Assembly (NCBI GenBank): GCA_016350165.1
Contig: CP066225.1
Coordinates: 4,154,001-4,218,000, forward strand
Source of the DNA: Planctomycetota bacterium
GTDB taxonomy: Bacteria > Planctomycetota > Phycisphaerae > Phycisphaerales > Phycisphaeraceae
DNA length: 64,000 nt
Reading direction: 5' to 3'
Positions 1 through 38,782 of the stretch are shown here, piece by piece (the stretch's first letter is position 1; each line of letters opens with the position of its first letter). The notes below the pieces were generated by a model. That model was not told the origin of the DNA and made no database searches. It saw only the letters and a program-made list of their open reading frames with translations. A program made the translations under genes and the position numbers.

Positions 1-1
1 T

Positions 2-1216
2 CAATCTTTAATTGTATGTTCATTTCTGCCTATATATCTCGTCTGTGTAGCTTGTAATTATGCGAATGCCGATTTGAAAATGATATTAAGTGATGCGTCC
101 GACCTTATTGAAGCACGAAAATTGTATTTAGTGGGTGATCCGAAGATAAATGAACAAGTAAGTAAATTGGTACAAAACGCAGATGCACTTCTTAATGGGC
201 CAATGTATACAATAGTAAATAAGCCATATACACCTCCCAGTGGTAGTAATAATGATTATATGAGTTTATCTCCATATTATTGGCCTAATCCAAATGCGGA
301 AGATGGTTTGCCTTATATTCGACGAGATGGTGAGATTAATCCAGAAAGAGAACGTTACGATAAAGCGCCTTTTGGAAAGATGGTTAATAAGGTGAATACT
401 CTGGCGTTAGCATACTTTTTTACAGAGCATGAAAGGTATGCAAAACAAGCTGCCAAACAATTACGCATATGGTTTCTAGATTATGAAACACGTATGAATC
501 CAAACATGAAATTTGCTCAGTTTGTACCCGGTAAATCGGAAGGTCGTAATTATGGAATTATTGAAACTGTAAGATTCCGTTGGCTTATTGATTCGATAAA
601 TATGCTCGAAGATTCGAAAGCGTGGACAACAGAAAATCAAAAAGATGTAGTCGCTTGGTTTAGAGCGTATCGTGATTGGCTTTTAAGTAGTAAATTGGGC
701 AAGCTTGAGGCTGCGTGTGCAAACAACCACGGCACTTGGTATGTGCAGCAAGTGTGTTTATATAGTTTATTTATTGGTGATAAAATCACAGCGAAGAAAA
801 TGTGTGACATAATTATTGATCGTATCGATAAGCAGATCGAATCAGATGGTTTTCAGCCATTAGAAGCATCTAGAACAAGGGGTATTGATTATTGCAACTT
901 TAATAATCGAGCTTTCTGGGATATGGCATACATGGCGAAAGAGCATTTAGATATCAATCTCTATGATTATGAATCGACAAACGGCAGTAGTATAAAAAAA
1001 GCGACAGACTATATGCTCCCGTATTATGTAGATGAAAAAGAATGGCCATACAGGCAAATTACAACGCCAAAGTATCGACATTATCGTGAAGAATTGAGAA
1101 GGGTTTCGAAGTTGCTAGATGATGTCAGTTACGAAGAGTATTTAATTAAAGTGCCTGGCGGCGATAGCATAGGTCTGGAATTAGACTTACGAATGCCACC
1201 GGTTGGCACTAAATAG
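2..1216 (+). CDS. Secreted alginate-lyase-family protein (5' end outside window)
   Basis: The reading frame is open to the left edge. The first ATG in it (position 74) is internal, because the codons before it encode a hydrophobic stretch ending ..CNYANA, which looks like a signal peptide with a cleavage site near position 62. The mature part has marks of the alginate lyase superfamily (PF05426, PL5-like): DYMSLSPYYWPNP near residue 62 counted from position 74, the NNHGTWY segment at about 722-742 whose Asn-His pair matches the catalytic pair of PL5 enzymes, and LEASRTRGIDYCNFN supplying candidate Arg and Tyr. Members cleave uronic-acid polysaccharides by beta-elimination; the exact substrate is not readable here. 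The 3' end overlaps the opposing gene by 30 bases. It is probably a periplasmic or secreted depolymerase of the sugar locus. Confidence 0.8.
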   Translation, partial: QSLIVCSFLPIYLVCVACNYANADLKMILSDASDLIEARKLYLVGDPKINEQVSKLVQNADALLNGPMYTIVNKPYTPPSGSNNDYMSLSPYYWPNPNAEDGLPYIRRDGEINPERERYDKAPFGKMVNKVNTLALAYFFTEHERYAKQAAKQLRIWFLDYETRMNPNMKFAQFVPGKSEGRNYGIIETVRFRWLIDSINMLEDSKAWTTENQKDVVAWFRAYRDWLLSSKLGKLEAACANNHGTWYVQQVCLYSLFIGDKITAKKMCDIIIDRIDKQIESDGFQPLEASRTRGIDYCNFNNRAFWDMAYMAKEHLDINLYDYESTNGSSIKKATDYMLPYYVDEKEWPYRQITTPKYRHYREELRRVSKLLDDVSYEEYLIKVPGGDSIGLELDLRMPPVGTK

Positions 1217-2584
1217 TCTATCGCTTAAATTGGAGAATTGAGATGTCAGTTGCTCGTTTGAGTTATGTTTTGATCCATGGAATTGAAAATCAATAAAACT
1301 TGCAACACGGTTTATTTGATCATAAAAATCACCGTAGCTCAAAACGAAATGGGTACCTAGTAGATGATCAAGCACGTCCTGAGTAGATTTAACTAAAAAG
1401 CGAATTTGTGTATGGCATGCAGGTAACTTGCTTTGTTTTTGTGTGATTCCAGTGTGTGCAACTAATTGTTTTGTGTTCATGCTTATTCTTGCAACGGTTG
1501 CGGTTAAAGCGTCAGGTAGTACAACTTCTGGAGCAACACCTTTGCCGCTTTCATGATGACGTAACAACTTGTAGTTTAGCTTTTTTAATCCCATGCATGT
1601 TGGTGCGGTACAATGGGCAAAATCAATAGCATTATTCGGATGAATTATGGGGTTGGCGATCCAAACAAAATCAGCATTCATTGCTTTTAGTAGGAAAAGT
1701 GTTACAGCAGCGTCTAAATCTCCTTCGCATGCTCCAATAGATTTCGCTGAATCATTTAAAGCACTTAACGCTAGGCAGCTCGTCGTATCGATATCACCAA
1801 TCATAGAAAAGCATGCCATGGATAAACCATCCGCCTGGTGTTCAGCTAATAACTTGTGCATTGCTACAGTTACTCTGCATGCTTTCGTGATGTCATTCGA
1901 GTCGACATTTGCAAGTTCAGGCTTAGTAGCTAGCCATCGATCCGCCTCGTCTTTAGCATCTTCGTTGGTGATATTATGGTAGTAGTCATACAAAACCCTA
2001 CGTTCAATGGTTTCGATTTTAGTGCCTATATTGCAACTAATTGCTTCAGGTGAACGGCAGCTGTTGATGACCCAGGGTTCAGTTTCACCGATTTTTATGA
2101 TCTTAGCATTTTTTAATCGTGAAGCGGCATTCCATGCTACACCGTAATCTATCAATTCCTCTGTATTTGAGAGCCATTGAATATCTTTATTACGAATCTT
2201 ATTGTAAGCAAAAAAATCTGTGCTGGATGGATGGGCGTTAGCGTGTAGTAAATCGCCTGACAGATTTGAGAGTAATGAATCAGGGAGATAGGCATTGTAT
2301 ATAGCAATGTGTTTTCTATGCTCTGTCATTCTTAGCATCCACGGTTGAACGCCGCCGCTTAAAGCGATAACAATGCAAGGTATATCACTATTATTTGTAG
2401 CGATATTAAGAGAATCACAGCTATCAAAATAGTTGATATTACAATATTCGGTTTGCAAGTTTAATTCATTGCATACCTTCTTGAATAGTTCTTTGCGTTT
2501 AGTTTCGTCAGGCCAATAAACAGGGGAGGCAAAAATAAATACGTCAATAGGATAGTTTTTCTCAAACTGTGTTGAGTGTGTCAT
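1187..2584 (-). CDS. L-fucose isomerase-like (COG2407-type) protein
   Basis: This is a 465-residue cytoplasmic protein. The C-terminal half carries GACEGDLDAAVTLFLL and a later DFAHCTAP segment, which resemble the ACEGD and HC(G)xAP signatures of the L-fucose/L-arabinose isomerase-fold family; these bind a divalent metal and interconvert aldoses and ketoses. The start is taken at the ATG at 2584, which has GAGAG about 7 bases upstream; a TTG at 2608 would add eight residues. It lies 37 bases downstream of the LacI-type gene on the same strand, so the two are probably co-transcribed. Its 3' end runs 30 bases into the end of the alginate-lyase-family gene. The substrate sugar is unknown, and isomerase activity is inferred from fold only. 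Confidence 0.7.
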   Translation of the reverse strand: MTHSTQFEKNYPIDVFIFASPVYWPDETKRKELFKKVCNELNLQTEYCNINYFDSCDSLNIATNNSDIPCIVIALSGGVQPWMLRMTEHRKHIAIYNAYLPDSLLSNLSGDLLHANAHPSSTDFFAYNKIRNKDIQWLSNTEELIDYGVAWNAASRLKNAKIIKIGETEPWVINSCRSPEAISCNIGTKIETIERRVLYDYYHNITNEDAKDEADRWLATKPELANVDSNDITKACRVTVAMHKLLAEHQADGLSMACFSMIGDIDTTSCLALSALNDSAKSIGACEGDLDAAVTLFLLKAMNADFVWIANPIIHPNNAIDFAHCTAPTCMGLKKLNYKLLRHHESGKGVAPEVVLPDALTATVARISMNTKQLVAHTGITQKQSKLPACHTQIRFLVKSTQDVLDHLLGTHFVLSYGDFYDQINRVASFIDFQFHGSKHNSNEQLTSQFSNLSDRLFSANRWHS

Positions 2585-2621
2585 AATATGTCTCTCAATA
2601 ATCGACAAGTAAATGAATATT

Positions 2622-3650
2622 TTATGGAATCAGCATGTCCGGTTGGACCAGCTGTGTCATTCTGGGTAAATCAGGGCAAGCAATACGAGTTAATAGTAAT
2701 TGAACCGCCAGTTGGCCAATCGGAGATGCATTAATATCGTACATCACTGGCTGTGGTTCAAGGTGTCTTTGGTTGATGATGTGGTCACAATCACCGCCAA
2801 TAAGCATGACATCTTTCATTGGTGTTACCCCATGGCGTATTAGCTGCTCATGAATGTCGGCAACAAGCTCATTTGCAACAAAGATACCCTCAGGGCGAGG
2901 CGATAGTGCTAGGAAATCTTTCACGATTTTCTGCGCGTGATTGTATGCATCACGTTGAGTTTCTGCTTGAGATAAATCATATCCCAATTGTTGGCAAGGT
3001 ATATTTCTTAATCGAGCAGATTGTTCGAACGCATCTGCGCGTTCTGTGTAAAACGTATTTATATCGATTGTTGGTGCGTAGCTCACAACACAAACATTCC
3101 GGCAATTGTTTTCTAGCATATAATTACATGCGGAATGGCCAACTAAACGGTGGTCTGGTTGAACTCGATCCCCCCAGCCCGTGCTACCTTGGTAAAACAG
3201 CCAGACCGTCGGGAATGAATTGAGTGCTTTCGCGTGTTTCTCTGGAAGGGGAGGTCCATGTAGTAAGATGCCATCCACACGTCCATTTTCAAGTATCGAT
3301 GGCAGCGTCCAATCAGGGGTTAAATAATCAACCAGCATGTTAATACCATATCGACGCATTGCGGTAGCCGCGCCTTCTTGTAGTTGATGTCCTGTGAGTG
3401 TGTGTGCGCCGGTGTGCCCACCTGTCCACAATAGAACTGATGTGTGATATTTAAGTGGCACGGTACCCATTGATTGTGAACTGCGATTCGTACTGTGTTT
3501 GCCTGGCTTGTAACCAAGTTTCTCAATAGCGGTTCGAACTTTCTCAGCAGTGGCTTTTTTAACAACTGGATGATCGTTTATCACCCTTGACACTGTAGCA
3601 ACGGAAACATTTGCTTCCTTTGCTACGCGAGTGATTGAGATGTCCGACAT
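2622..3650 (-). CDS. LacI-family transcriptional regulator
   Basis: This 342-residue protein has an N-terminal LacI helix-turn-helix (residues about 5-50: ITRVAKEANVSVATVSRVIN) followed by the hinge and a periplasmic-binding-protein-like effector domain. LacI proteins bind palindromic operators as dimers and release DNA (or bind it) when a sugar ligand is present. It is transcribed away from the secreted gene at 3965, with a 314-base AT-rich divergent region between them that holds palindromic TGTAA/TTACA words. It also leads the operon that contains the isomerase-like gene. It is probably the local sugar-responsive regulator of this locus; the ligand cannot be told from sequence. Confidence 0.93.
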   Translation of the reverse strand: MSDISITRVAKEANVSVATVSRVINDHPVVKKATAEKVRTAIEKLGYKPGKHSTNRSSQSMGTVPLKYHTSVLLWTGGHTGAHTLTGHQLQEGAATAMRRYGINMLVDYLTPDWTLPSILENGRVDGILLHGPPLPEKHAKALNSFPTVWLFYQGSTGWGDRVQPDHRLVGHSACNYMLENNCRNVCVVSYAPTIDINTFYTERADAFEQSARLRNIPCQQLGYDLSQAETQRDAYNHAQKIVKDFLALSPRPEGIFVANELVADIHEQLIRHGVTPMKDVMLIGGDCDHIINQRHLEPQPVMYDINASPIGQLAVQLLLTRIACPDLPRMTQLVQPDMLIP

Positions 3651-3964: not shown

Positions 3965-5875
3965 ATGATGTTTGTGGCTAAAGATCCCAAATTTACCGTT
4001 CGATCGAAATGGTTGGATATCGAGATCTTGTGCTGTGGCATCTTTCTGACTTTAGCTCTTGTGGGTGGCAAGGCTAGGGCGGGCATCACTGAAAAAGCCA
4101 TTGATCAGGACATTGAAGCACGGCAGTTGCAAATTCTTAAAAGGCAATCGCGTAATCCATACCCCAAATCAGGTTTTTGGCATTATGAAAATCTAGCTAC
4201 GGGAACGTATTGGCTCAATGAGAATAATCACAAAGCTGACGCAGCTTTACTTGATGCTCAAGAAAAGTATTATCTGAAAGAAAAAGACGAATTTCATTGG
4301 CATGCATATCTGCTTGAGCGAATCTATTTCCTTTACTCAAGTCAAAGTGAATACTTTCCAGGTCGTATGAGTGATGCTGCGGAGAAAGCTGTCTTGGAGA
4401 TGTTATGGGATTGGTCGTCTGAAAATTGCAACAGACAGTTGGCTTCATTGGATCGAGTGTGGTGGGTATGGGGCAGTGAAAACCATCACCTGCAAGCATG
4501 GGTTAGCTTTTGGGGTGCTGCGCAGATATTTAAAAATCATCCCGACTATAAAAACAAAAAATATTCAGATGGCTCAACCCCATCTCAGCTTGCAAAAGCT
4601 TTTGATAGATATTTTAAGAAATTCTTATCTGAACGAGCAATGGAAGGTTTGTTGGTGGAAGTTGCCTCGCCGACATATGCAAAATATTCGTTAAACACGC
4701 TATATAACATTGCTGATTTTGCAGATGATCCTGTGCTTAAAGAGCGCGCGAGTATGTTCTTGGATCTTTATTGGGCAGACTGGTCAATAGAGCAAATTAA
4801 TAGTATTAGAGGTGGGAGTCGACATCGTTGCTATCCGGGCAATTCCTCAAACGTAGAAGCTCCGAATCGTGGACAGTCATGGTTATTGTTTGGCATAGGC
4901 ATTAAAAGTCCGCATCCAGGTGACATTTGTGCAGCGACAACATTCTGGCGTCCATCACCTGTCGTTGTCGCATTAGCGACTGATTGGAATGGTCGTGGAA
5001 AATATGCATATGTAACGAAACGCCCAGGTTTAGATGCTCGTAATGCAAGTAAATCGAAGCAATTCAAAATTGGCGCTCGTAAAGCCTTTGGCACATATAA
5101 CCTCGATCCAAATGGTGGTTCGATACGACGGTATTCATGGTGTACACCTGATTTTGTTATGGGGATGACCATGGTCGCCCCAATTCCTTGGGAGAGATGG
5201 AGTCGAATTTCTAGTCAGAATCGTTGGAACGGCATCATTTTCTCAGGAAGCGACACTGCAAGAATTTTCACAAGACGATTTAAGCCAGAAAAAGGCAGCG
5301 TTTATAACGCAGAATGGGGTGTGCAAAACAAAGGTGTTATGATCTTGCAGCGATTAAGAGATGCTAAGAGTGCAACTGGCCAGCGTATATGGTTTTCAAA
5401 ATCATTAAAGCGGGTGAAGGTTGATGGCTGGGTGTTTGTTGAAGCACCTAATGCGTATGCTGCCGTTCGAATTGTAAATGGAACTGGGCGTTGGAATGTA
5501 GATTTATCTGCAGAGCATCATGAAGGACGGGGGAAAACAGATTTGGGTGAATGGTTAGATCTTGATGATCCATTTTCGCCAATCGTATTCGAAGTTGCGT
5601 CAAAAGAAAATTTTAGTGGTTTCAAGGCATTTCAAGAGAATATCCTCAGTAACGTATTAACGTTAAAGGGGGCTCGGTGTGATTATGAAAGTTTGTTCTA
5701 TAAGACGAAATTATCACTTTTTACGAATGCAAAGCATACGCCTCTTGTAGACGGATCGCCTGTGAACTTTACTCCTAGAAAGACGTACGACAGTCCATTT
5801 ATTCAGCAAGAAGAAAAGATCACAATCAAATACCTCGATATGGAGGAAGTATATGATTTTGAAAATTCGAAATGA
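3965..5875 (+). CDS. Secreted toroid-like protein, putative polysaccharide-degrading enzyme (paralogue of 7054-10440)
   Basis: This 636-residue protein has a hydrophobic segment near residues 22-39 ending KARA, consistent with a long signal peptide. It is rich in helices in its first half and beta-like in the second, as in (alpha/alpha)-toroid plus beta-sandwich lyases, but I cannot place it in a named family. It is clearly homologous along its length to the gene at 7054: FPGR near residue 135, WWVWGSENHHLQA near 165, AKYSLNTLYNIAD near 238, IRGGSRHR, YSWCTPDFVMG, DGWVFVEAPNAYAAVR and a final YDSPFIQ all have matches there. Invariant Asn, His, Tyr and Arg residues in these blocks are candidates for catalysis. 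The start could be 3965 or the next ATG at 3968. Enzyme role is inferred from context. Confidence 0.6.
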   Translation: MMFVAKDPKFTVRSKWLDIEILCCGIFLTLALVGGKARAGITEKAIDQDIEARQLQILKRQSRNPYPKSGFWHYENLATGTYWLNENNHKADAALLDAQEKYYLKEKDEFHWHAYLLERIYFLYSSQSEYFPGRMSDAAEKAVLEMLWDWSSENCNRQLASLDRVWWVWGSENHHLQAWVSFWGAAQIFKNHPDYKNKKYSDGSTPSQLAKAFDRYFKKFLSERAMEGLLVEVASPTYAKYSLNTLYNIADFADDPVLKERASMFLDLYWADWSIEQINSIRGGSRHRCYPGNSSNVEAPNRGQSWLLFGIGIKSPHPGDICAATTFWRPSPVVVALATDWNGRGKYAYVTKRPGLDARNASKSKQFKIGARKAFGTYNLDPNGGSIRRYSWCTPDFVMGMTMVAPIPWERWSRISSQNRWNGIIFSGSDTARIFTRRFKPEKGSVYNAEWGVQNKGVMILQRLRDAKSATGQRIWFSKSLKRVKVDGWVFVEAPNAYAAVRIVNGTGRWNVDLSAEHHEGRGKTDLGEWLDLDDPFSPIVFEVASKENFSGFKAFQENILSNVLTLKGARCDYESLFYKTKLSLFTNAKHTPLVDGSPVNFTPRKTYDSPFIQQEEKITIKYLDMEEVYDFENSK

Positions 5876-5889
5876 TTTATGAAGCATTA

Positions 5890-5918
5890 GCATAATCGTA
5901 TTTTTGATTATTTTTTAG
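5890..5918 (+). terminator. Weak hairpin with T run
   Basis: An ATAATC/GATTAT stem with an AT-rich loop is followed by six Ts, 15 bases after the stop of the upstream gene. The stem is short and AT-rich, so termination may be partial. Confidence 0.4.
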
Positions 5919-5941
5919 TGTCTAAAGTATAAAATAACGTT

Positions 5942-5965
5942 TGTAATAATTCGCCAGATATTACA
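5942..5965. promoter_or_regulatory. Inverted repeat TGTAATA-N10-TATTACA
   Basis: Perfect 7-base arms (5942-5948 and 5959-5965) lie about 90 bases before the pseudopilin gene. The TGTAA half-site is the same word seen in the palindrome upstream of the gene at 3965, so this may be another operator of the same regulator. Inference only. Confidence 0.35.
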
Positions 5966-6050
5966 GCAGAAACCACCACAACAATTTCAAACCCAGAAGA
6001 TTTTTCAACTCTTTCATTCAATTCTTCGGGTAAGTAAAAGGAACACAATC

Positions 6051-6809
6051 TTGGAACTAGTAACATGTAGACGGAATATGTTCAATCGTAAGGCTTTTAC
6101 GCTTATCGAACTTTTAGTCGTCATTTCCATCATAGCATTGCTGATAGGAATTTTGTTGCCAGCACTGTCCGCAGCACGTGATACTGCTATGGGCATTAAG
6201 TGTATGAGTAATGTACGTCAATTAGGCATCGGGAATGGCATCTATACTCACGAAAACAATCAGTTTTTACCAATCGTCAATGACGTTCGCGCGAAATTAA
6301 CCGAGCTTGTAAAAAACCCAGACGCTTTTTCTTGCCCGGGCGACGACCACTTTGAAGTGAAGTACAAGGCTGACGGTACCATTCAAGAAACGGATGAAGA
6401 CAGCTCATATGGTTATAACTTCGTTTACCTAGGTTGGGCCCATAAATGGGGACCTGCTGACGATAAATACGGCCCCGGCTCAGATATCGATTGGCACAAG
6501 CTGGACGAATCAACAAATCCAACAAGCACAATTGTGTTGGGTGACAGTGGTCACAGATCAGAAGAAGAAGAAGATCCTTATTACAACAATGTAGGTTATG
6601 ATGCAACATTCATTCGTTGGCACATTAATCCTAGCTACAAGAAAATGTTCTTGTATCGCCGTCATTCACAGAATACACGCACCAATATCCTGTGGCTTGA
6701 TGGTCACTGCTCAAATGAAATTCCAGAAGTTCTTCATGAACATAAAGAAACCGTTCAGAACGAATACTGGCGTCTTCGCAAGCTAAGTTGGATCAAGGAT
6801 AGTAACTAA
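6051..6809 (+). CDS. Pseudopilin with prepilin-type N-terminal methylation motif
   Basis: The N-terminus has a short basic leader, then AFTLIELLVVISIIALLIGILLPAL, the type IV/II prepilin signal with Glu at +5, followed by a C-terminal region containing RHSQNTRTNILWLDGH. This resembles the H-X9-DG region of planctomycete pseudopilin-like proteins, with a spacing of 11 here. A prepilin peptidase would cut before Phe and methylate it. Two starts are possible: a TTG at 6051 with AAAGGA 8 bases upstream, and an ATG at 6078 giving MFNRKAFTLIELL with a weaker site. It sits between the two toroid-like genes, so it is likely part of the sugar locus. Such proteins are many in planctomycetes and their job is not settled; assembly into a surface or secretion structure is inference. 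Confidence 0.85.
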   Translation: MELVTCRRNMFNRKAFTLIELLVVISIIALLIGILLPALSAARDTAMGIKCMSNVRQLGIGNGIYTHENNQFLPIVNDVRAKLTELVKNPDAFSCPGDDHFEVKYKADGTIQETDEDSSYGYNFVYLGWAHKWGPADDKYGPGSDIDWHKLDESTNPTSTIVLGDSGHRSEEEEDPYYNNVGYDATFIRWHINPSYKKMFLYRRHSQNTRTNILWLDGHCSNEIPEVLHEHKETVQNEYWRLRKLSWIKDSN

Positions 6810-7053
6810 TTTAGACGGCAATAACGCTCATTTTGGGTGTCGCTTAATAAATTTTGATTTGATTTTTGCTTGTAATCGTTTCAGGTATATTGCAATGAGT
6901 CAAAAGTATTAGTACTTGATTGCGTTATGAGCAAATTTCAAGTCAAACATAAAGCTTAATTCGACTTGAGATTTATGAGTACTGTTTACAGCATGTATTG
7001 GCTCGCCATCCCTTTTATTGCCTGAATGCAAATAGTATGTTTTTGAGGTATAT

Positions 7054-10000
7054 ATGATCAGATTCATTGCTACAATTTTAGCACTTTCAACAACAGCTTC
7101 AGTGTATGCTGTTGATGAAAAGCCACTCGATTTTTGGGCAGAGGAAACACTTCTCTTTAATGTCGTTGCCGAGAACCAGCACATTTCAGTAGATAAAAGA
7201 TTACGCCCATCCCCAGCTTTCTCACTTGAACACAGTGATAAGAAAGTGGGCGATTTGTCGATTAGCTTTTCTAAACGATTTGCTAAGGATAAACCGCGAT
7301 TTGGTTTTGTTGCGGATCTATGGGGCAGTTCATGGCAATTAACTCCAGATATGAATCTGCATTTTTGGGTGAAAATTACATCCGGATCTGCCGCAGAAAC
7401 GTGGTCTGTAGAACTAATCGATATCAATGGTAACATCGCAACAACATCAGTCTCCGAGTTGACAGCAGCTAAACAATGGCTTGAATTATCAATACCTTTG
7501 AATCAGTTTAAAGCAACCTCAAGTTTTGATTGGAACGCTGTTCGATCTTGCGAATTTGATGTTGATTGTAGCAGTGATACAAGGATTCTTTTTGATGGAG
7601 TTGCTTTCTCTAATAGCAATCAAACGATCGGTGTAACAGACAAAACTGTTACGCAACGCATGGCTGAAGCTACAAAAAGTCGTCAAGCACGCGTTAACAA
7701 AGCTTTCTCATTAACTCGTAAAGATAAGACCTATCCAGCAGTTTATGCATTTGCAAAGTTATATCTAAATGAAGATATCGATTCTGCAAACGATTTGCTT
7801 GTTCAGGAATTAAAAAAGTCAACACCAGCCAACTACTGGGGTTTGCTGGAAACTCCTCTTTACTGCCGTATCTATTACATGTTCTCTAATAAAGTTGGTA
7901 AATTTCCTGGCCGTTTAAAGCCTGAAACCGAAACGCTGTTACTTGAAACCCTTTGGGAACGTACGGTTGCAAAGAACGATATTAATTGGGCAAAGCAAAG
8001 TACATGGTGGCTTGATGGAAGTGAAAACCATGATCTAAACGCGAAAGCTTCAAGTTTTGTCGCTTCACGAATTTTCATGAATGAGCCAGAATATAAAGAT
8101 AAACTTTTCCCAGACTATGGTTTTGGCGGAGGTTATCACTACGGACATGCAGGCTACTATGGTGAAAACGTAAATCCAGATACACGCCATCATGGTGGAC
8201 GTGCTAATCTTTCAGATGGTAAACGTTACAACGCTGAAGCTCACTACAATGCATGGCTCGGTTTCATGAAGGAATATTTCCGTGAACGTGCAGAGCGAGG
8301 CTTCTTCTTGGAGAATAGATCCATTGGCTACAGTAAACACACGCTAAATATGGTCGATCTAATTTATCAGTACGGCGGAGATGCTGAACTTACACAAGAG
8401 ATCGACGATTTTCTTAAGCTTTACTGGGCCGAATGGGCACAGAACGCAATCTCAGGTATTCATGGTGGCCCTAAAACACGTCATCATCACCGTGTTGGTG
8501 ATGTGGATAGCACGATGCCATTAATTGTCTTCTTATTTGGTGGCCCAGGTAATGGCGAAGTTTGGTATTACTGGAATTTAATCAGTGACTTTGAAATGCC
8601 ATCCATCGTTTGGAACATGGCTCTCGATCGCCAACGTATGGGTTCATATGTTTATCAATCACGTGGTATTGGCGAGGAGCAGGGCATTTGGCCTCGTCCT
8701 CTTGGTACCGAGCGAACATTGCTTTGCGATACCGATTCACGTTTTCTTAAGTACTCATACGTAACACCAGACTATGTTCTTGGCACACAAATGGATCACC
8801 CAGGTGCTGTTCATTCTCACCTCAGTGTCTGCGGCCGTTGGCACGGCTTAACCACAGGCCAATCACGCAAAGCTCGTATCGTTCCGGTTGGTATTCCGGA
8901 ACCCAATAGTAAAGCGGCTAAAAAATACGGCTACGATATCGAAGTCATGTTCAGATCTGTTCAGCATAAGAATACACTGATCATTCAGCAATCTCGTAGT
9001 TGGTCTGCAATTGATCCTGCATGGTACCCTCGTTATCACGGCAAATATGAACGTAACGTTGGTATATATATTGGAAACGATTGGGATAATGTAATCGAAA
9101 AAGATGGATGGGTTTTCCTTCAAAAAGGTAATACATATTCAGCGGTTAGGCCAATCTTATGGGACAAAGAATTTGAAGATAGTAAGAAGAAACAATCCAA
9201 TGCTTCATACAAAATCTTTGATCAACCAGATGATGACCCAACTGTTAAGTTAAAAGATGATTGCTATACATGGAACGATCAGAAAACTATTCTTCTTCTA
9301 GAATACAACTTCAGCCCAGTAATTATTGAAGCCGGACGAAAGGCGGATTACGCAACCATGGATGCATTTATATCAAGCATCCTCGACAATCCAGTTTCTC
9401 TTTATAAAACCGTTGTACCAGGCTTCAATGTGCTTACTTACAAAGGTAACACCGGAGACAATAAACAGATTGTCTTTAATACGGCTAATACAGAAATCCC
9501 AACTGTCGGTCAGCAATACATCAATTACAGCTACCCGATGACTTTTGATAGCCCTTACATCAAATCAAAATATAAGAGTGGTAAGGTCTCTATCGAATTT
9601 AATGGTGAAAAGCTTGACCTCGACTTTACCAAATATCCAAAGCGTAATAAACAAGCAAACACAACGATGAACACAGAATTAAAAAATAACTCTAAAGCAG
9701 CGATTCCTAATAATGATGACCGCAAGGCTTTTGAAGCAGCAGATGATCGTACATGGACTCAATCCTTTTACGATTCCTGCACTGATGATTGGACAAAGCA
9801 ATGGTTCCTAGATGGCAAAATTGGCTCAGTTACTAATACATCTGAAGGCATGCAGATGTCATCAGGCCCACAATTCCTAAACGACGCACATCACATGGTA
9901 CTCTGGACCAAAGATGAATTTAAAGGTGATGTGAAAATTGAATACAAATTTACACGTCTCGATTTTGAAAAACGTTGTGTAAATATTCTCTACATTCAAG

Positions 10001-10440
10001 CCACTGGCAGCGATGATGGTCCCTATAAAACTGACATCACCAAATGGAGCAAGTTCCGAGAAGTTCCAGCAATGAAGATGTACTTTAACCACATGAATAC
10101 TTATCACATTAGCTACGCCGCTTTCCCAAACGCAGGGGATGATCGTGATGATTACATCCGTGCTCGTCGTTATGTACCGAACCAGACCGGCCTCGAGAAC
10201 ACTGATCTAAAACCCGATTATTTTCGCAATGGCTTCTTCACGCCAGGCGTACCTCACCGTATTACAGTCATCAAGCAGAATGATGAACTCTTTATGCGTA
10301 TCAGTACAGTAGAAAAAACCAGCTATTTCCACTGGAAGAATGATCAGGCTCCACCAATTGAAGCCGGTCGAATTGGTCTGCGTCTCATGTTCTGTCGCTC
10401 TTCAAGATTCAAAGACTTCAAGGTCAGCGTTTCAGAATAA
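7054..10440 (+). CDS. Large secreted multidomain protein: beta-sandwich, toroid-like core, DUF1961-like C-terminus
   Basis: This 1128-residue protein has a clear signal peptide (cleavage after SVYA, about residue 19) and a GAGG site before the ATG. Residues about 20-190 look like a carbohydrate-binding beta-sandwich. The central part (about 200-880) is homologous to the 3965 gene: FPGR, WWLDGSENHDLNA near 318, SKHTLNMVDLIYQ near 427, IHGGPKTRHHHR, YSYVTPDYVLG, DGWVFLQKGNTYSAVR and FDSPYIKS. Relative to that paralogue it carries a Gly/His/Tyr-rich insert near residues 360-390. Residues about 885-1128 resemble DUF1961 (YHISYAAFPN and GRIGLRLMFCRSSRFKDFKV near the end), a jelly-roll fold found in carbohydrate-active proteins. 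It is probably an extracellular polysaccharide-processing enzyme with its own binding modules; the activity is unknown. Confidence 0.65.
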   Translation: MIRFIATILALSTTASVYAVDEKPLDFWAEETLLFNVVAENQHISVDKRLRPSPAFSLEHSDKKVGDLSISFSKRFAKDKPRFGFVADLWGSSWQLTPDMNLHFWVKITSGSAAETWSVELIDINGNIATTSVSELTAAKQWLELSIPLNQFKATSSFDWNAVRSCEFDVDCSSDTRILFDGVAFSNSNQTIGVTDKTVTQRMAEATKSRQARVNKAFSLTRKDKTYPAVYAFAKLYLNEDIDSANDLLVQELKKSTPANYWGLLETPLYCRIYYMFSNKVGKFPGRLKPETETLLLETLWERTVAKNDINWAKQSTWWLDGSENHDLNAKASSFVASRIFMNEPEYKDKLFPDYGFGGGYHYGHAGYYGENVNPDTRHHGGRANLSDGKRYNAEAHYNAWLGFMKEYFRERAERGFFLENRSIGYSKHTLNMVDLIYQYGGDAELTQEIDDFLKLYWAEWAQNAISGIHGGPKTRHHHRVGDVDSTMPLIVFLFGGPGNGEVWYYWNLISDFEMPSIVWNMALDRQRMGSYVYQSRGIGEEQGIWPRPLGTERTLLCDTDSRFLKYSYVTPDYVLGTQMDHPGAVHSHLSVCGRWHGLTTGQSRKARIVPVGIPEPNSKAAKKYGYDIEVMFRSVQHKNTLIIQQSRSWSAIDPAWYPRYHGKYERNVGIYIGNDWDNVIEKDGWVFLQKGNTYSAVRPILWDKEFEDSKKKQSNASYKIFDQPDDDPTVKLKDDCYTWNDQKTILLLEYNFSPVIIEAGRKADYATMDAFISSILDNPVSLYKTVVPGFNVLTYKGNTGDNKQIVFNTANTEIPTVGQQYINYSYPMTFDSPYIKSKYKSGKVSIEFNGEKLDLDFTKYPKRNKQANTTMNTELKNNSKAAIPNNDDRKAFEAADDRTWTQSFYDSCTDDWTKQWFLDGKIGSVTNTSEGMQMSSGPQFLNDAHHMVLWTKDEFKGDVKIEYKFTRLDFEKRCVNILYIQATGSDDGPYKTDITKWSKFREVPAMKMYFNHMNTYHISYAAFPNAGDDRDDYIRARRYVPNQTGLENTDLKPDYFRNGFFTPGVPHRITVIKQNDELFMRISTVEKTSYFHWKNDQAPPIEAGRIGLRLMFCRSSRFKDFKVSVSE

Positions 10441-10477
10441 GTCGTAGAAATAAGTAGTGATGATTCAGAGAAAGACA

Positions 10478-11572
10478 ATGAACGATAAAATTCAAATGGC
10501 AATTGTAGGGTTACGTTTCGGCCAACATATCGTTGAGAATCAAGTTCTTAACGGCCCCGGTGCGCCATTTATTAATCTACGAGGGGTCTGTGATCTAGAC
10601 CGAACTAAAAGTAGCACACTTGCCAAAAAATATAATCTTAAGGAGTATCTTTCTCTCGATGGGATTCTAGATGATCCCGTTATTGAAGCAGTAGGTCTTT
10701 TCACGCCACCATCAAACCGAGCCAACATGATACGAAGAATCATGTTGGCAGGTAAGCACGTGATGACAACCAAGCCATTCGAGCTTGAATCCGACGAAGC
10801 ATTTAAAGTTTTGCTGGAAGCCAAGCAACTCAATAAGATCGTTCATCTCAATTCGCCCTCGCCGCTTCCTTCACAAGAAACTGCACAGATACTAAAGTGG
10901 CAAGATGATCACAATCTTGGACAGCCAATTTCGGCACGTTGGGAAACGTTCACAAGTTCATGTGAACAAGCTGATGGTAGCTGGTACGATGATCCCCAGC
11001 AATGTCCAGTTGCGCCTATCTTTCGAATAGGTATCTACGGCATCAATCAACTCATCAGGCTTTGTGGTCGTGTTGAATCAGTCAGCGTATGTCATTCTCG
11101 CATCAGAACAGGCCGTCCAACACCTGATACTGCAGAATGCTCATTGCAATTTGAAAGTGGTGCTTTAGGCAGTATTTTCGCATCATATTGTATTGACGAA
11201 GGTCATCTCTATGGCAGTCGTTTGTTGATGCACTATGAACGTGGCACGATCCGCAATAGTGTGACAGCACTTGACGATCGTGGCGAAACCTCTGCCATAG
11301 ATCTTCATCTCCAAACACCACTACCTAATAGAAAACTCTACTGCGAGACAGCTTCCATTGATGAGGAAGAAATGAGTGGGAAGTATCAGTGGGATCTTTT
11401 CTATAACGCTGTTCGTAAAAACAACTTTTATGTCAAGGGTGAAATCACACCTGATCTTATTGCGCATGCTATCGAGGTCATCGATGCAATGCGTCTTTCG
11501 CAAGAGTTTGACAAGCGAATTGCTATTTCAGAAGTTTCAATTGAACAACAACACGCTCATGCAGCGTTGTAA
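10478..11572 (+). CDS. Gfo/Idh/MocA-family NAD(P)-dependent dehydrogenase
   Basis: The N-terminal Rossmann segment MAIVGLRFGQHI begins a family in which NAD(P) binds the first 130 residues and the C-terminal alpha/beta domain holds the sugar. HVMTTKPFEL is the family's E/K-K-P-like motif with the catalytic Lys. The chosen ATG at 10478 is preceded by GAGAAAG; upstream GTG/ATG codons at 10457 and 10460 would add residues not typical of the family. It starts 37 bases after the toroid-like gene and ends 23 bases before the isomerase-like gene, consistent with one operon. It probably oxidises a sugar or a sugar acid released from the polysaccharide. The glycine motif GLRFGQ differs from the usual GxGxxG. 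Confidence 0.85.
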   Translation: MNDKIQMAIVGLRFGQHIVENQVLNGPGAPFINLRGVCDLDRTKSSTLAKKYNLKEYLSLDGILDDPVIEAVGLFTPPSNRANMIRRIMLAGKHVMTTKPFELESDEAFKVLLEAKQLNKIVHLNSPSPLPSQETAQILKWQDDHNLGQPISARWETFTSSCEQADGSWYDDPQQCPVAPIFRIGIYGINQLIRLCGRVESVSVCHSRIRTGRPTPDTAECSLQFESGALGSIFASYCIDEGHLYGSRLLMHYERGTIRNSVTALDDRGETSAIDLHLQTPLPNRKLYCETASIDEEEMSGKYQWDLFYNAVRKNNFYVKGEITPDLIAHAIEVIDAMRLSQEFDKRIAISEVSIEQQHAHAAL

Positions 11573-11595: not shown

Positions 11596-13026
11596 ATGAA
11601 AAAAGATACTGAATTAAAAATCGGTCTGTTCGGTATCGGCCTCGATACTTATTGGTCACAATTCAAAGGTCTAAAAGAAAATCTCGAAGGATATCAGGCA
11701 GAGGTTAAATCAAAGCTCGAATCCTTTGGCAGCAACGTCGTCGACCTCGGCCTTATCGACGAACCAGAAGCCGCCAAAGCTGCAGGTGACCAATTCCGCA
11801 AAGAAAGTGTCGATGTTCTTTTCCTTTTTATCACAACTTATGCACTTTCCTCAACAGTTCTTCCTGTTGTGCAACGTGCTGGCGTCCCCGTTATCGTGCT
11901 GAATCTTCAACCCGTAGCTCAATTGGATTACGAAAAATTCAACAACCTCGGCGATCGCGGTACCATGACCGGCGTTTGGCTAGAACATTGTCAGGCATGC
12001 AGCGCTCCTGAAATCGCATGCGTTTTCAATCGTGCAAAGATCGACTATCACCAAGTTACCGGCCATCTTCAGGATGAAGAGGCTTGGACTGAAATACAGG
12101 ACTGGGTCGATGCCGCACGCGTCAAGAAGGAAATGCAAAACAATCGAATGGGCATCCTTGGCCATTATTACTGCGGTATGCTTGATGTCTACAGTGATAT
12201 GACTCAGCAGGCAGCAGTTTTCGGCACGCACTTTGAACTTCTGGAAATGTGTGAGCTTCATACACTTCGCGAAGCAGTCACCGATGAAGAAATCAAATCA
12301 GAAGTGCAGCGATTTGAAAGCGAATTCGACGTTTCGCCTGAATGTGAACAAGCTGAAATCAAACGTGCTGCACAAACTTCTGTCGCATTGAAAAAGCTTG
12401 TTACAAACCACGATCTCGGTTCTATGGCTTACTACTACGAAGGCGAATCAGGGAGTGACTACGAAAACATCGTTACTTCAGTAATCGCAGGTAACACACT
12501 TTTGACCGGTCACGATGTTCCAGTCGCTGGTGAGTGTGAAATCAAAAATGCACACGCTATGAAGATCATGGACATCCTCGGTGTTGGCGGTTCATTCTCT
12601 GAACTCTATCTCACCGACTTTAAAGACGATGTTGTATATCTCGGCCATGATGGTCCTGCACACTTCGCGATCTCTGAAGGTACAGTTGGCCTCGTACCTC
12701 TCCCCGTTTATCACGGTAAGCCAGGTAAAGGTCTTTCAATTCAAATGACAGTTCAGCACGGCCCTGTCACACTTCTTTCTGTTGTCCAACGTGGCGATGG
12801 CACACTACTTCTTCTTATGGCCGAGGCTGAATCTGTCGATGGGCCTATCCTACAGATAGGCAATACAAACAGTCGCTACAAATTCAGTATCGGTTCTAAA
12901 AAGTTTCTCAATGATTGGGTTCAAGCTGGCCCTGCACATCACTGTGCAATCGGTATAGGTCATATTGCAAGCAAGATCGAAAAACTCGGTTCACTGCTAG
13001 GCATCGAAACTCTCAAAATCTGCTAA
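11596..13026 (+). CDS. L-arabinose/L-fucose isomerase-like protein
   Basis: This 476-residue cytoplasmic protein has the fold order of L-arabinose isomerase: an N-terminal flavodoxin-like half (KIGLFGIGLDTYW at the start), then candidate metal-site segments AGECEIKNAHAMKIM, SFSELYLTDF, LGHDGPAH and AGPAHHCAIGIGH. The acidic and His residues in these blocks occupy positions similar to the two Glu and two His metal ligands of AraA. AraA and relatives convert aldoses to ketoses with Mn2+. The protein is divergent and may act on another pentose or 6-deoxyhexose. It is followed 19 bases later by the rhamnose mutarotase gene, and a mutarotase plus isomerase pair fits entry of a deoxy sugar into metabolism. 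An SD-like GGAG lies just upstream. Confidence 0.75.
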   Translation: MKKDTELKIGLFGIGLDTYWSQFKGLKENLEGYQAEVKSKLESFGSNVVDLGLIDEPEAAKAAGDQFRKESVDVLFLFITTYALSSTVLPVVQRAGVPVIVLNLQPVAQLDYEKFNNLGDRGTMTGVWLEHCQACSAPEIACVFNRAKIDYHQVTGHLQDEEAWTEIQDWVDAARVKKEMQNNRMGILGHYYCGMLDVYSDMTQQAAVFGTHFELLEMCELHTLREAVTDEEIKSEVQRFESEFDVSPECEQAEIKRAAQTSVALKKLVTNHDLGSMAYYYEGESGSDYENIVTSVIAGNTLLTGHDVPVAGECEIKNAHAMKIMDILGVGGSFSELYLTDFKDDVVYLGHDGPAHFAISEGTVGLVPLPVYHGKPGKGLSIQMTVQHGPVTLLSVVQRGDGTLLLLMAEAESVDGPILQIGNTNSRYKFSIGSKKFLNDWVQAGPAHHCAIGIGHIASKIEKLGSLLGIETLKIC

Positions 13027-14488: not shown

Positions 14489-16938
14489 ATGGCGTTCTCG
14501 AAATATATCTCAATTCTTTTTACACTTTTATTTGCGACTCATTCAGCTTTTGCGACTGAAAAAATTGCGACTCAGCAATTCTTCGAGTATACCAATACGA
14601 TTCAGCTGCAAGAAAACACCAGCGGCGCCTTCATCAATAGAATATCAGACAGCCTTATCATTGCAGGTGGACATGAAGCCACTGATATTTATCTTCAGGA
14701 AAAAACAACTGGGTATCTATCGCTAAGTTAGATTCGCGAAGATCAAATGGTGCGTCAGTTGTCATCGGCAGTACGCTCTATCTCATCGGCGGCAATATCG
14801 ACGGTCAACTCATCACGACAGTCAATACCGTTAGGCGTATTAAAGATCTAGAAAGCAAAAAAATTACAATACAAATTGCAAGCTTTCCCGAACTCCCTCA
14901 ATCTCTCAACAACATCACCGCTACAACAATTAATAACACAATCTATGTTGCAGGTACCGCCAACAATCAAAACTACTTTTACTCATACGACACAAAGCAA
15001 ATCAAAGCAACGTGGACTGAAAACGACGTATGGAGCAATAACGCATCCAATCAAATTGCGATTGCAACGCAGCAAAATAAAATTTTTCTCTTCTATACAT
15101 CAGAGCAAAATAAAAATCTTAGTTCCAGCATCTACAAACCAGCCTCCGGTTGGCAAGCTCTCGATGACGCGTCATTCACACCTAATAACTTCAAAGCTGT
15201 TCCATGTGGTAACGCTCATATCCTCCTCTTCGAGTCCAACTCCGACAAAATCTATGGCCTTTACGCCATCACTAACAACTGGGCGCAGCTCGGTAAACTC
15301 CCACAGCCAATACAAAACCTTGATGCTGTTATCGCCAATGGTATTAATTTTCAAATCTTTTCGAACAACAATATTATCACAGGGAAAGCTGTATTTCCAC
15401 CAACAAAATACGGCCTTTTAGATCACGCTGTTGTCGCAGCATTCTTCCTCATCATGCTATATATCGGTTGGCGTACATCCAAAAAAGGCAAAAATAATAA
15501 AGATTACTTCCGGGGTGGCCAGCGTATCCCTTGGTGGGCCGCAGGTCTCAGTCTTTTTGCTACAGGTGCTAGCGCCATAAGCCTCGTCGCGATGCCTGCA
15601 AAATCATTTGCTGAAAACTGGATCTACGTCAGCACCTCCATCTTTGCGATCCTTACACTCCCCATCACGATCTACTTCATCGTACCGCTTGCACGTCGCC
15701 TCCAAGTCGCAACAGCTTTCGAGTACCTCGAACGTCGTTTCCATCCAGTCGTACGTTTCTATGGCTCAATCGTTTTCTCTCTCTCGCAAATGGTCGGCCG
15801 TATGGCAGCAATCATGCTCCTTCCCGCGCTAGCGCTCAGCGCAATCTGTGGCATTCCAATGCACATCAGTATCCTTCTCATGGGACTCCTCACAACCATC
15901 TATGCAAGTATGGGCGGCCTCTCAGCAGTCATCTGGACTGACGTTATTCAAGCCCTAGTTATGATCGCCGCAATGGTTCTCTGTGCAGTTTGGGTCATCT
16001 TCTCAATCGACTATGACTTCTCAACCGCTATGAGCATTCTCGATCAAAGCAACAAACTTCAAGTTATCGATTGGTCATTCGATCTCGCCGCGCCAATCAT
16101 ATACGTCCTCGTTCTTGTTCATCTCATACTCCCTATTGGTGCGTTAGGTGACCAGAATTTCATTCAACGTGTACAAAGTACTGCAGACGAAAAAACCGCT
16201 GTGAAAGCTGCTGTTACACAAATGTTTGTGGCCGTACCTCTCAACTTCCTTCTTTTTAGTCTCGGCACACTCCTCTTCCTTTACTACTATCAAAATCCAC
16301 AAATGCTCACACCTGCCATGAAGAACGACAGCGTCTTCCCTCTCTTTGCTGCTCAAGTCTTGCCATCAGGTTTAGGTGGTGTCATCATGACCGCAATCAT
16401 GGCCGCAACGATGTCGACGCTTTCATCAGCCGTTAACTCAGTGGCAAACATCGGCGTCGAAGATTTCTTCCGCCCACTTCGCCCACAAACTACCGATCGT
16501 GGTTTCCTTATCGCAGGTAAACTTTTCACTGTAGCATTAGGTATCTTCGGTACGGGTGTCGCTCTGCTTCTAGCTTACACGCCACTCGATTCAATCTGGG
16601 ACCTCTTCATTCTTGTTTCAGGCATTATCTACGCTCCACTCATCGGCATCTACTGTCTCGGCATCTTTACCAAACGTACCAACGCTCTCGGTGCAGGCAT
16701 TGGTCTTATCGGTGGTATCGGCGTTGGTGTCGCACTCAAATACCTCAACCTATTCCCTGCTCACGCATTCACATACACACTCATCACACAAACCGTCTGC
16801 ATGGCCGCAGGTTACTTCATCAGTATCATCATCCCTGGTAAACCACAAGACCTTACTGGCCTCACCGCCTACACCCTCCCACCAAAAGAATCCACCGAAC
16901 AAAAACAGTCTTCTCAATCAGCCGAAGTCAGCGCATAA
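14489..16938 (+). pseudogene. Kelch-domain/sodium:solute symporter fusion, split by a one-base frameshift
   Basis: The first part (from the ATG at 14489, GAAGGA upstream) has a signal peptide ending SAFA and a kelch-like SLIIAGGHEAT, then stops at 14729. In the -1 frame the protein continues without a stop from the A run at 14700-14705: NWVSIAKLDSRRSNG, then TLYLIGGNIDG (another kelch blade), more propeller sequence, and from about 15421 a complete sodium:solute symporter (SSS) domain with about 13 membrane segments. One extra A in the run (seven instead of six) restores an 816-residue protein. Such NanM-like-propeller/SSS fusions are known from planctomycetes and Bacteroidetes. Causes: a real loss-of-function indel, a homopolymer sequencing error, or slippage at the A run. 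The symporter part alone could start only near 15454. It would import sugars or sugar acids with sodium. Confidence 0.8.
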
Positions 16939-37054: not shown

Positions 37055-38560
37055 GTGAGGACGGAATTGTTAGATCAGATTCTTGAGTCACCACAGCTGC
37101 CAACGCTGCCACGAATTGCCGTTCGTGTAATCGAGTTGTGCAAATCAGAACACAGCGACCTGCAGGAGCTGGTGGACGTTATCAGTACTGATCCGGGGCT
37201 TACCGTTAAACTTCTCGCTTCGGTCAACAGCAGCTATTACGGCCTCAGCCGTGAAGTCACTTCCGTTGGCGAAGCAACCAAACTTCTCGGCATTCGTGCT
37301 GTCAAAACACTCACGATTGCATTCTGCCTTTCACAAGTCATTTCAGAACAATGCCCGCACGACTTCGACCTCGAAGGCTTTTGGCGTCGTTGTCTCTACT
37401 CCGCTGTGGCGGCACAATTAATCTCTGAAAAATCAGGTTGTCAGCAAGAAGAAGAAGCATTCACCGCTGCGCTCATACAAGACATCGGCCTCGTCGCAAT
37501 GGTTCAAGTCATCGGCCGCGACTATCAGGAACTCCTGAAATCCACAGGCTCAAATCACTCTGTCCTCAATCGCATTGAGCAAAACCAACTCGCAACAGAC
37601 CACGCAGAAGTTGGTTCATCATTAGCAGATCAATGGGGATTGCCACAAATATTTGTGGAAACAATCAAACACCATCACAACCCCGATGCTGCAAGTGATA
37701 AATACCGCGATCTGACTCGTCTTGTCAATCTAAGTAGCCTTGTCGCTGATGCTCTATCGCCTGATCAACTCGCTGTTGCATCAATCTCAACATTCGCTTC
37801 GAAGCTTGAAGATTGGATGAACATACCCGAAGAGCAAGCTCACGATTTATTAAATATTGTTGAGGATAAAAGCAGAAAACTCGCGAACTCATTTCGAATC
37901 AAACCACGTCCGCAACGCGACGTAAACAAAGTACTGCTTCAAGCAAACGAATCGCTCGTCAAGATGACCATTGAAAATAATCAGCGTCTTGATGAACTTG
38001 AAAAGCAAAACGATAAACTTATTTCTGCTGCACAAAAAGACCCACTCACCGGGCTCGCTAACAGACGCATGTTTGATAGCGCTCTGCGTGAAGGGTATTT
38101 AAAGAGTAGCGAAGCAGATTTTCCGTTAAGTTTGATTTTGTTCGATATCGATCATTTCAAACGTATTAACGATGAGTACGGCCATCTGGCCGGCGACCGT
38201 GTTCTTGTCATGATTGCAAAACTATTACAAGAACACGAACCTGAGGGAGGATGCATCGCCCGATTTGGTGGCGAAGAATTTACGTTAGTGCTGCCGCGAT
38301 TAGGGGTCGCGTCAGCTGCACAAATCGCTGAGCATATGAGAATTCGCATCGAGCAAATGCGGTTCGATATTGGTGGAGAAAAAAGAATTCATGTCACCGT
38401 AAGCGCAGGTGTTGCAGGTCGTGATCATCTCAGGCAATTAACCAGTGAAATGGAATTGCTCGATTGCGCCGACAAAGCTCTCTATGCTGCAAAATCATCT
38501 GGTCGCAATTGTGTCAGAGTATTACGACCAATGATGATGCCAAAACTATCTAATCAATAA
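37055..38560 (+). CDS. HDOD-GGDEF protein (putative diguanylate cyclase)
   Basis: This 501-residue protein has an HDOD domain (about 1-230; LPTLPRIAVRVIELC then STDPGLTVKLLASVNSSYYG), a coiled linker, and a GGDEF domain with DPLTGLANRRMFD (about 330) and the RFGGEEF active site, which keeps the catalytic Glu. The usual inhibitory RxxD site five residues before GGEEF is absent (PEGG there). GGDEF proteins make cyclic di-GMP from GTP. The GTG start gives MRTELLDQILESP, which lines up with the next gene. It is followed by a close paralogue, probably from tandem duplication. Confidence 0.9.
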   Translation: MRTELLDQILESPQLPTLPRIAVRVIELCKSEHSDLQELVDVISTDPGLTVKLLASVNSSYYGLSREVTSVGEATKLLGIRAVKTLTIAFCLSQVISEQCPHDFDLEGFWRRCLYSAVAAQLISEKSGCQQEEEAFTAALIQDIGLVAMVQVIGRDYQELLKSTGSNHSVLNRIEQNQLATDHAEVGSSLADQWGLPQIFVETIKHHHNPDAASDKYRDLTRLVNLSSLVADALSPDQLAVASISTFASKLEDWMNIPEEQAHDLLNIVEDKSRKLANSFRIKPRPQRDVNKVLLQANESLVKMTIENNQRLDELEKQNDKLISAAQKDPLTGLANRRMFDSALREGYLKSSEADFPLSLILFDIDHFKRINDEYGHLAGDRVLVMIAKLLQEHEPEGGCIARFGGEEFTLVLPRLGVASAAQIAEHMRIRIEQMRFDIGGEKRIHVTVSAGVAGRDHLRQLTSEMELLDCADKALYAAKSSGRNCVRVLRPMMMPKLSNQ

Positions 38561-38782
38561 TTCGATTAAGTTTTGTTTGCAAAGTTAGAATAGACAGAGC
38601 TTTGTTTAAACGTTTTAGCGGCTCACCAAAACGGTCGATAAACTAATACCAATAGAGATCTCATTCCGGGGCATCAATACATATTTCGCCTGTTTTACAG
38701 GTGTTGCTATGTGTGCCGAGATTTATTTAGTGTGTGTCATTTTCAAGAGGTTGGATAACCGGATGTGAGGGGATTTTCGTTT

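Follow-up and report, generated by a model that had tools for sequence, protein, structure and literature searches.

What is the function of two large homologous proteins whose motifs recur across bacterial phyla and whose core matches no named enzyme family? This question is raised by a 64,000-nucleotide window of contig CP066225.1 (positions 4,154,001 to 4,218,000; G000:C1:4154001-4218000 in our coordinates) from a Planctomycetota bacterium with a genome of 5.23 Mb in one contig, which contains two open reading frames (ORFs) referred to here as lyase A and lyase B. An undescribed, toroid-lyase-like enzyme family had been proposed in the initial annotation of this stretch, and this proposal is supported by fold comparisons, residue conservation and the lack of a match to a named family. 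Lyases A and B are probably polysaccharide lyases (PLs) of a sequence family unnamed in Pfam, NCBIfam and PDB sequences, which at the level of the modelled fold would belong to the superfamily that combines an (alpha/alpha) toroid with a beta-sandwich (PL8, 12, 15, 17, 21, 33, 35 and 39). Based on the predicted fold, the conserved residues and the gene neighbours, they most likely represent a widespread bacterial family that cleaves uronic-acid-containing polysaccharides by beta-elimination. The kind of enzyme is known, and the sequence family itself appears to be unassigned.

Both ORFs lie on the forward strand at the coordinates originally given. Lyase A (3965..5875) has 636 amino acids (aa), and lyase B (7054..10440) has 1128 aa comprising an N-terminal region, a lyase core at about residues 196-866 (7639..9651, delimited by alignments and residue mapping) and a C-terminal DUF1961 domain. 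Their homology was confirmed by pairwise BLASTP with an E-value of 1e-37 at 25 % identity over 719 columns, and judged from the sequences this similarity is far above chance level. The description as full-length homologues applies to lyase A, which matches the core of B over its whole length, whereas B has an extra N-terminal stretch of about 175 aa and the DUF1961 domain. Most of the motifs reported as shared in order are present in both proteins, namely FPGR, WW-x2-GSENH-x-L, K-[YH]-[ST]-LN, YS-x2-TPD-x-V-x-G, DGWVF-x4-N-x-Y-x-AVR and DSP[FY]I. The exception is I-x-GG-x3-RH, which occurs in B only (IHGGPKTRH), while A reads IRGGSRHR. Both proteins are predicted to be secreted, as judged by eye from their hydrophobic N-termini. 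A third copy in the host genome, 54 % identical to A, is located 0.84 Mb away.

Relatives were collected by a pattern scan covering 84,980 species with one genome each, which resulted in 70 loci containing 87 family ORFs. A length filter kept 84 of these, 11 were dropped as fragments, cut or short sequences, and the resulting 73 ORFs form, together with A and B, the alignment A3 of 75 rows; relatives from further genome searches are outside this alignment, and some of them lack the Asn/His pair. In motif 1 of lyase A (WWVWGSENHHL, 4460..4492), Glu172 and Asn173 are present in 75/75 rows and His174 in 72/75. The conservation of SENH is biased upwards because it was part of one of the two scan patterns; Glu232, Tyr238 and Arg288 were in neither. 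Glu232 and Tyr238 of motif 2 (EVASPTY, 4658..4678) are invariant in all 75 rows, as is Arg288 of GG-x3-R (4811..4828), which is the family-wide form of the motif that A and B do not share. Trp166 and Pro395 are also invariant, Arg420 is found in 74/75 rows, and the beta-domain residue Tyr390 in YSWCTPDFVMG (5132..5164) in 73/75. In lyase B, the counterparts of these conserved residues are Glu324, Asn325, His326, Glu420, Tyr426, Arg476 and Tyr567. The suggestion that invariant Asn, His, Tyr and Arg residues could form an active site thus stands for Asn173, His174, Tyr238 and Arg288, and fails for the histidine of 'RH' (His287), which is present in 9 % of the rows.

For naming the family, Pfam, NCBIfam and PDB sequences were compared. 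At E<=1, lyase A is matched by neither Pfam nor NCBIfam, and B matches DUF1961 alone in its C-terminal part, with a sub-threshold DUF6250 match in the same place, which leaves the core unmatched. No repeated match to the core was found for the 75 members in Pfam at E<=0.1: DUF1961 and DUF6250 were matched by two members each (the fused domain), BCAS3 by two members at 0.017, and seven further models by one member each at 0.011 or worse. The same members gave only eight one-member rows in NCBIfam, at 0.03 or worse. Neither the 75-row family profile nor a 17-row profile matched any PDB sequence at E<=10. Membership in a family with a solved structure was rejected, as A gave two chance-level PDB rows (E-values of 0.9 and 1.6) and B and the profiles gave none. 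The result named beforehand as speaking against a new family, a clear profile hit to a family of established activity, is therefore absent for the core in these three libraries, in which no known lyase or hydrolase family can be assigned. A description of such a family was also not found in the open-access literature, as far as listings and abstract openings cover it.

An alternative that we consider possible, and rather doubtful, is that A and B belong, as lyases, to a family already present in CAZy for which there is no Pfam or NCBIfam model or solved structure, such as PL34, PL36, PL37, PL41, PL43 or PL44. The naming comparison covered Pfam, NCBIfam and PDB sequences, which leaves room for this explanation. 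According to two reports, PL34, PL36, PL41 and PL44 are alginate-lyase families (PMC12336832) and PL37 is an ulvan-lyase family (PMC12915356). Sulfatases and GH106 rhamnosidases (GH, glycoside hydrolase family) accompany some of the relatives in their loci, as might be the case for ulvan loci. The unmatched core and the outcome of the literature search argue against this alternative.

An indication of the kind of enzyme comes from the predicted fold. The model of lyase A, built from 75 sequences, reached a mean predicted local distance difference test (pLDDT) score of 90.4 and a predicted template modelling (pTM) score of 0.91. It shows helices from residue 43 to about 340, corresponding to a toroid, and strands at about 347-630, corresponding to a beta-sandwich. 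The anticipated toroid-lyase-like order of a helical half followed by a strand-rich half agrees with the model and the structure comparisons. As modelled, lyase A has both the helical N-terminal toroid and the antiparallel beta-sheet domain of the toroid superfamily, with moderate Z-scores of 8-11.5 to known structures. At E<=0.001, 35 of the 37 Foldseek matches were polysaccharide lyases and the other two were a GH146 enzyme. With a second aligner, 45 of the 50 entries listed were polysaccharide lyases of many PL families, and many of them cover both domains. The best among the 50 listed were the chondroitinase 9o3q (Z 11.5), the PL35 enzyme 8khw (11.0) and the dermatan sulfate epimerase 6hzn (10.4), followed by 3afl of PL15 (10.0), 4ojz of PL17 (9.9) and 6jp4 of PL39 (9.8), where PL numbers follow entry titles or the literature. 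PL5 or PL38 rows were not among the 50 entries listed, which by the aligner's rule excludes nothing. Since no single PL family is ahead and the Z-scores are moderate, the comparisons support the superfamily and not a particular family. The model of lyase B is poorer (pLDDT 68.8), particularly in the N-terminal region, to which no fold is assigned. In the fold search with B the C-terminal domain took up all the matches, so that the evidence for the toroid fold comes from the model of A.

The matches listed also include glycoside hydrolases on the toroid fold, with GH105 (4wu0), GH76 (6shd, 6y8f and 4d4c) and GH146 chains, and the invariant Glu172 and Glu232 could be acids in such an enzyme. It is nevertheless very unlikely that A and B are hydrolases. 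The GH105 and GH76 matches end by residue 423 with 223-244 residues aligned, whereas most lyase matches cover both domains with about 380-450 residues, and the invariant Asn-His/Tyr/Arg set is lyase-like.

From the homology, the fold, the conservation and the gene context, we infer a catalytic scheme in which the residue roles are assigned by analogy with those of PL17, PL35 and PL40. A uronate-containing chain would bind in the interdomain cleft, where Asn173 and His174 would neutralise the +1 carboxylate. Proton transfer would fall to Tyr238, by itself or together with the beta-domain residue Tyr390, as Bronsted base towards C5 and as Bronsted acid towards the leaving oxygen, and Arg288 might help to bind the carboxylate or the chain. 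Cleavage would leave a 4,5-unsaturated uronate at the non-reducing end of the product.

Of the known families, PL17 offers the closest parallel to this scheme. Its structures (Alg17C 4nei, AlyA3 7bm6 and BoPL17 8bdd) resemble lyase A in having a toroid and a beta-sheet, with Z-scores of 9.0-9.9. In AlyA3, Asn199 and His200 stabilise the charge and two tyrosines serve as base and acid (PMC12336832). In the family of A, the conserved Asn173-His174, Tyr238 and Tyr390 could provide a corresponding set. It differs from PL17 in sequence, since no PDB sequence was matched at E<=10 despite the PL17 structures in the PDB, and a comparison by hhalign with a 13-protein PL17-type set reached a probability of 2.1 %. 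The PL35 glycosaminoglycan lyases 8khw and 8khv share the two-domain architecture (Z 11.0 and 9.8). In the PL35 account, a charge-neutralising Asn and a catalytic Tyr lie in the toroid, the Asn belongs to an Asn-Asn pair, and the base is the beta-domain His401 with Mn2+ (PMC12088678). In contrast, the pair in the family of A is Asn-His, and a conserved His is missing from the beta-domain, where no column contains His in 22 or more of the 75 rows; it also matched no PDB sequence although 8khv and 8khw are in the PDB. For the PL40 ulvan lyase Uly1040 (9VTK), the literature reports a toroid with a beta-sheet, the toroid residues Asn245, Trp or His246, Glu301 and Tyr305, sulfatase-bearing loci, and a requirement for Asp358, His485 and His487 with Mn2+, a beta-domain His being the base (PMC12915356). 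The family resembles PL40 in the toroid residues Asn, Trp/His, Glu and Tyr and in the sulfatases of its loci, and differs from it in having no conserved counterpart of His485 or His487. No sequence likeness to PL40 (Uly1040 or P10_PLnc) was seen among PDB sequences, of which the copy searched may not contain 9VTK. By analogy, the proposed scheme resembles the Asn-His/Tyr/Tyr arrangement of PL17 and not that of PL35 and PL40, which rely on a His of the beta-domain.

Heparinase II/III enzymes of PL12 and PL21 are similar to lyase A in fold (4fnv and 2fuq, both with Z 9.2). None of the Pfam heparinase models was among the matches of the 75 members, and no PDB sequence was found at E<=10. A distant branch, formed by 15 proteins from the search of the host's phylum that have YWSENH and similar motifs, aligns with the family over the full length (hhalign 100 %, E-value of 1.7e-47). 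Against heparinase II/III, this branch reached 38.8 %, and the whole family reached 1.7 % against planctomycete heparinase II/III, both of which are sub-significant. In these sub-significant alignments, the catalytic Asn and Tyr motifs are in register, SENHH being paired with the Asn-Trp motif and E-x2-S-x2-Y with E-x-S-x2-Y-H. For PL8, neither PF08124 nor PF02278 nor a PDB sequence was matched and hhalign gave 0.0 %; for the PL38/PL5 type, PF05426 was not among the matches of the 75 members and hhalign gave 0.3 %. Direct kinship of the 75-row family to heparinase II/III, PL17-type, PL38-type or PL8 lyases is not significant by hhalign, with values of 0.0-2.1 %. As positive controls, heparinase against PL17-type reached 100 % and PL17-type against PL38-type 99.2 %, and the negative controls sulfatase and GH106 remained at 0.0-0.3 % (0.3 and 0.0 % for the distant branch). 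Heparinase against PL8 reached merely 2.4 %; therefore, hhalign also misses accepted fold-mates.

The gene neighbourhoods of the relatives are in many cases degradative. When neighbouring proteins from the 70 loci were clustered and one representative per cluster was named by Pfam, one sulfatase cluster comprised 44 proteins in 19 loci, a GH106 cluster six in six loci and a GH88 cluster three in three loci. GH88 enzymes act on unsaturated uronates, i.e. the products of lyases, and for this reason they are the most telling neighbours. The gap between the GH88 and lyase genes is 28 bases in L038 and 42 bases in L043, with both genes of each pair running in the same direction, and it is 1.6 kb in L040. 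A Pfam scan of 307 of the 388 neighbour ORFs identified 30 Sulfatase matches, at least six GH106, at least three GH88 and at least three BNR_4, and more rarely PL4 domains (at least two), PF05426 (at least one) and glucuronate isomerase (at least one). For many loci, chiefly from rumen metagenome-assembled genomes (MAGs), the listed families include none with an obvious role in polysaccharide metabolism. In three Latescibacterota loci (L044, L051 and L057), A- and B-type lyases occur together with a PL4-type cluster gene, and the two lyase genes of L044 enclose a gene whose product is 41 % identical to a PF05426 lyase of the window. The latter lyase (438 aa, 1..1216, forward strand; PF05426, 2.3e-81) is outside the family and starts 100 bases before the window (L102:9900-11216). 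Its nearest solved relatives are 3nfv (1.6e-69) and 8bdq (6.7e-57), the latter a PL38 enzyme according to PMC12088678. The host genome has 41 Sulfatase matches, 40 of them above the cut-off and none in the window, and a PL8-type gene (L101:14190-16361) is found 2.6 kb from the third copy. Concerning the substrate, the neighbours of the relatives point to rhamnose, uronate and sulfate, and the neighbour in the window points to an alginate-type polyuronate. In addition, a cluster of PhyH-type dioxygenases recurs by family members in L049, L055, L059, L060 and L069 of Latescibacterota and Gemmatimonadota.

Several observations weigh against A and B being polysaccharide lyases. The Foldseek matches have moderate template modelling scores of 0.2-0.4 with large root-mean-square deviations (rmsd), and the Z-scores of the second aligner, which come with an rmsd of 5-7, are likewise moderate; the aligner itself warns that Z below about 13 in helical proteins may reflect a mere common arrangement. 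The missing significance of the profile comparisons with heparinase, PL17-type, PL38-type and PL8 lyases adds to this, as does the lack of any GH88/GH105 or GH106 match in the host genome. Furthermore, some members from the host's class are without the Asn/His pair, with SESL for SENH in L008 and L009 and GNKSK in L025 and L026; judging from these replacements, they may be inactive or altered paralogues. Finally, the human dermatan sulfate epimerase 6hzn, which shares the fold at 7 % identity, is the third-best entry among the 50 listed. Uronate C5-epimerases share the fold and the proton abstraction and reprotonate the anion without cleaving the chain. An epimerase function is nevertheless highly improbable for A and B: in three loci a GH88 gene beside the lyase suggests that the products are unsaturated, the loci are degradative with sulfatases, rhamnosidases, other lyases and sugar transport, and only one of the 50 entries listed is an epimerase of this fold.

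The C-terminal domain of lyase B (residues 914-1124, 9793..10425, forward strand) was identified as DUF1961 by PF09224 with 1.2e-7 and 31.7 bits against a cut-off of 25. Its modelled fold is that of a YesU-like lectin, with 209 residues of 1oq1 aligned at Z 21.7 and an rmsd of 2.5, which agrees with its assignment to DUF1961/YesU. YesU binds fucosylated glycans (PMC6120924). The protein from Bacillus subtilis (1oq1) is a single domain with a 223-residue chain, whereas its counterpart in B is joined to a lyase. Similar domains, with 50-58 % identity to the one in B, were found in 7/70 loci. The fusion partner is an A-clade lyase in L042 and L048 and an unplaced lyase in L074; in L050, L071 and L073 the domain is encoded by the gene that follows an A-type lyase, and in L072 it lies 4.8 kb away. 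That the domain is fused in some loci and adjacent in others supports a joint function, and by analogy with YesU the domain probably holds the enzyme on its glycan. The lectin-like domain also allows for another explanation, in which A alone works as an enzyme and B is degenerate and mainly a glycan-binding partner. Two members of the B clade (L008 and L009) have SESL and a Lys in place of Arg288, which would fit such a loss. For the window this explanation is quite unlikely, because its lyase B retains Asn325, His326, Tyr426 and Arg476, as do three Latescibacterota rows of the B clade.

According to the record titles, the family is distributed over nine phyla: Planctomycetota, Verrucomicrobiota, Lentisphaerota, Kiritimatiellota, Bacteroidota, Latescibacterota, Gemmatimonadota, Hydrogenedentota and Bacillota. 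These labels may be loose because most relatives are MAGs. The relatives occur in marine, freshwater, gut and rumen bacteria, among them cultivated species such as Draconibacterium sediminis and Lentisphaera marina. One Paludibacter-labelled MAG has a tandem of three family members (L066:8371-15630) adjoining a SusD-like gene. In the host's phylum, a protein search matched 20/392 genomes, and in its taxonomic family the profile matched 13/51, both including the host; the one other species of the genus was unmatched. A species-wide core function was therefore ruled out, and the lyase family can be regarded as accessory. A viral origin was rejected as well, since the 10 stretches matched by the pattern contained no relatives. 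In a tree computed with a quick method and Shimodaira-Hasegawa-like approximate likelihood ratio test support, the B clade (6 rows, support 99) is apart from A and comprises three Latescibacterota rows and two from the host's class. The A clade (8 rows, support 99) includes the third copy of the host and rows from Planctomycetota, Verrucomicrobiota, Lentisphaerota and Bacteroidota. L048 and L074:14029-16734 had been grouped as B-type by BLAST, largely via DUF1961; this was rejected as the tree places the former in the A clade and the latter on a long unsure branch. Consequently, the only loci outside the window counted as having both A and B are the three from Latescibacterota.

The remaining genes around the lyases include a prepilin-like ORF between A and B (6051-6809, PF07963) and a LacI-type regulator divergent from A (2622..3650, reverse strand; PF00356, 1.2e-15). 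Two weak inverted repeats were seen upstream of 3965, where a LacI operator was looked for. Directly after B follows a Gfo/Idh/MocA oxidoreductase (10457..11572, forward strand; PF01408, 1.5e-15), and the window also holds further oxidoreductases of this type and a DUF2961 protein. Isomerase-like proteins flank the lyases (1187-2608, reverse strand; 11596-13026, forward strand) and are distantly similar to arabinose, fucose and sulfoquinovose isomerases, with NCBIfam values of 1e-10 to 6e-17 that are far under the curated cut-offs; they may process the released sugar. A sodium:solute symporter of the SSF type is encoded at 15454..16938 on the forward strand (PF00474, 8.7e-48). A secretion-signal-like start at 14490 is followed by about 80 open codons, and the reading continues in another frame into this ORF (14490-16938). 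As read from the sequence, the symporter ORF looks like the latter portion of a gene that begins further upstream, with either a broken gene or a sequence error as the cause. Further downstream, two adjacent HDOD-GGDEF proteins (37055-38560 and 38765-40288) form an apparent tandem duplication.

Beyond the assignment as lyases, we tentatively propose, with somewhat less than even confidence, that the family is new to CAZy, spans at least nine phyla and uses an Asn-His/Tyr/Arg centre in place of the beta-domain His of PL35 and PL40. In this proposal, the lyase pair with its YesU-type lectin would act on a glycuronan that contains rhamnose or fucose, is often sulfated and lies outside the range of the known families. 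The proteins are unnamed in the libraries although their relatives are located in polysaccharide-degradation loci. If they are lyases, a missing step in glycuronan breakdown would gain a candidate enzyme, and the active-site set of the toroid lyases would gain an arrangement without a conserved beta-domain His. The family also provides a handle on DUF1961/YesU domains, which accompany it as fused domains or as next-gene companions.

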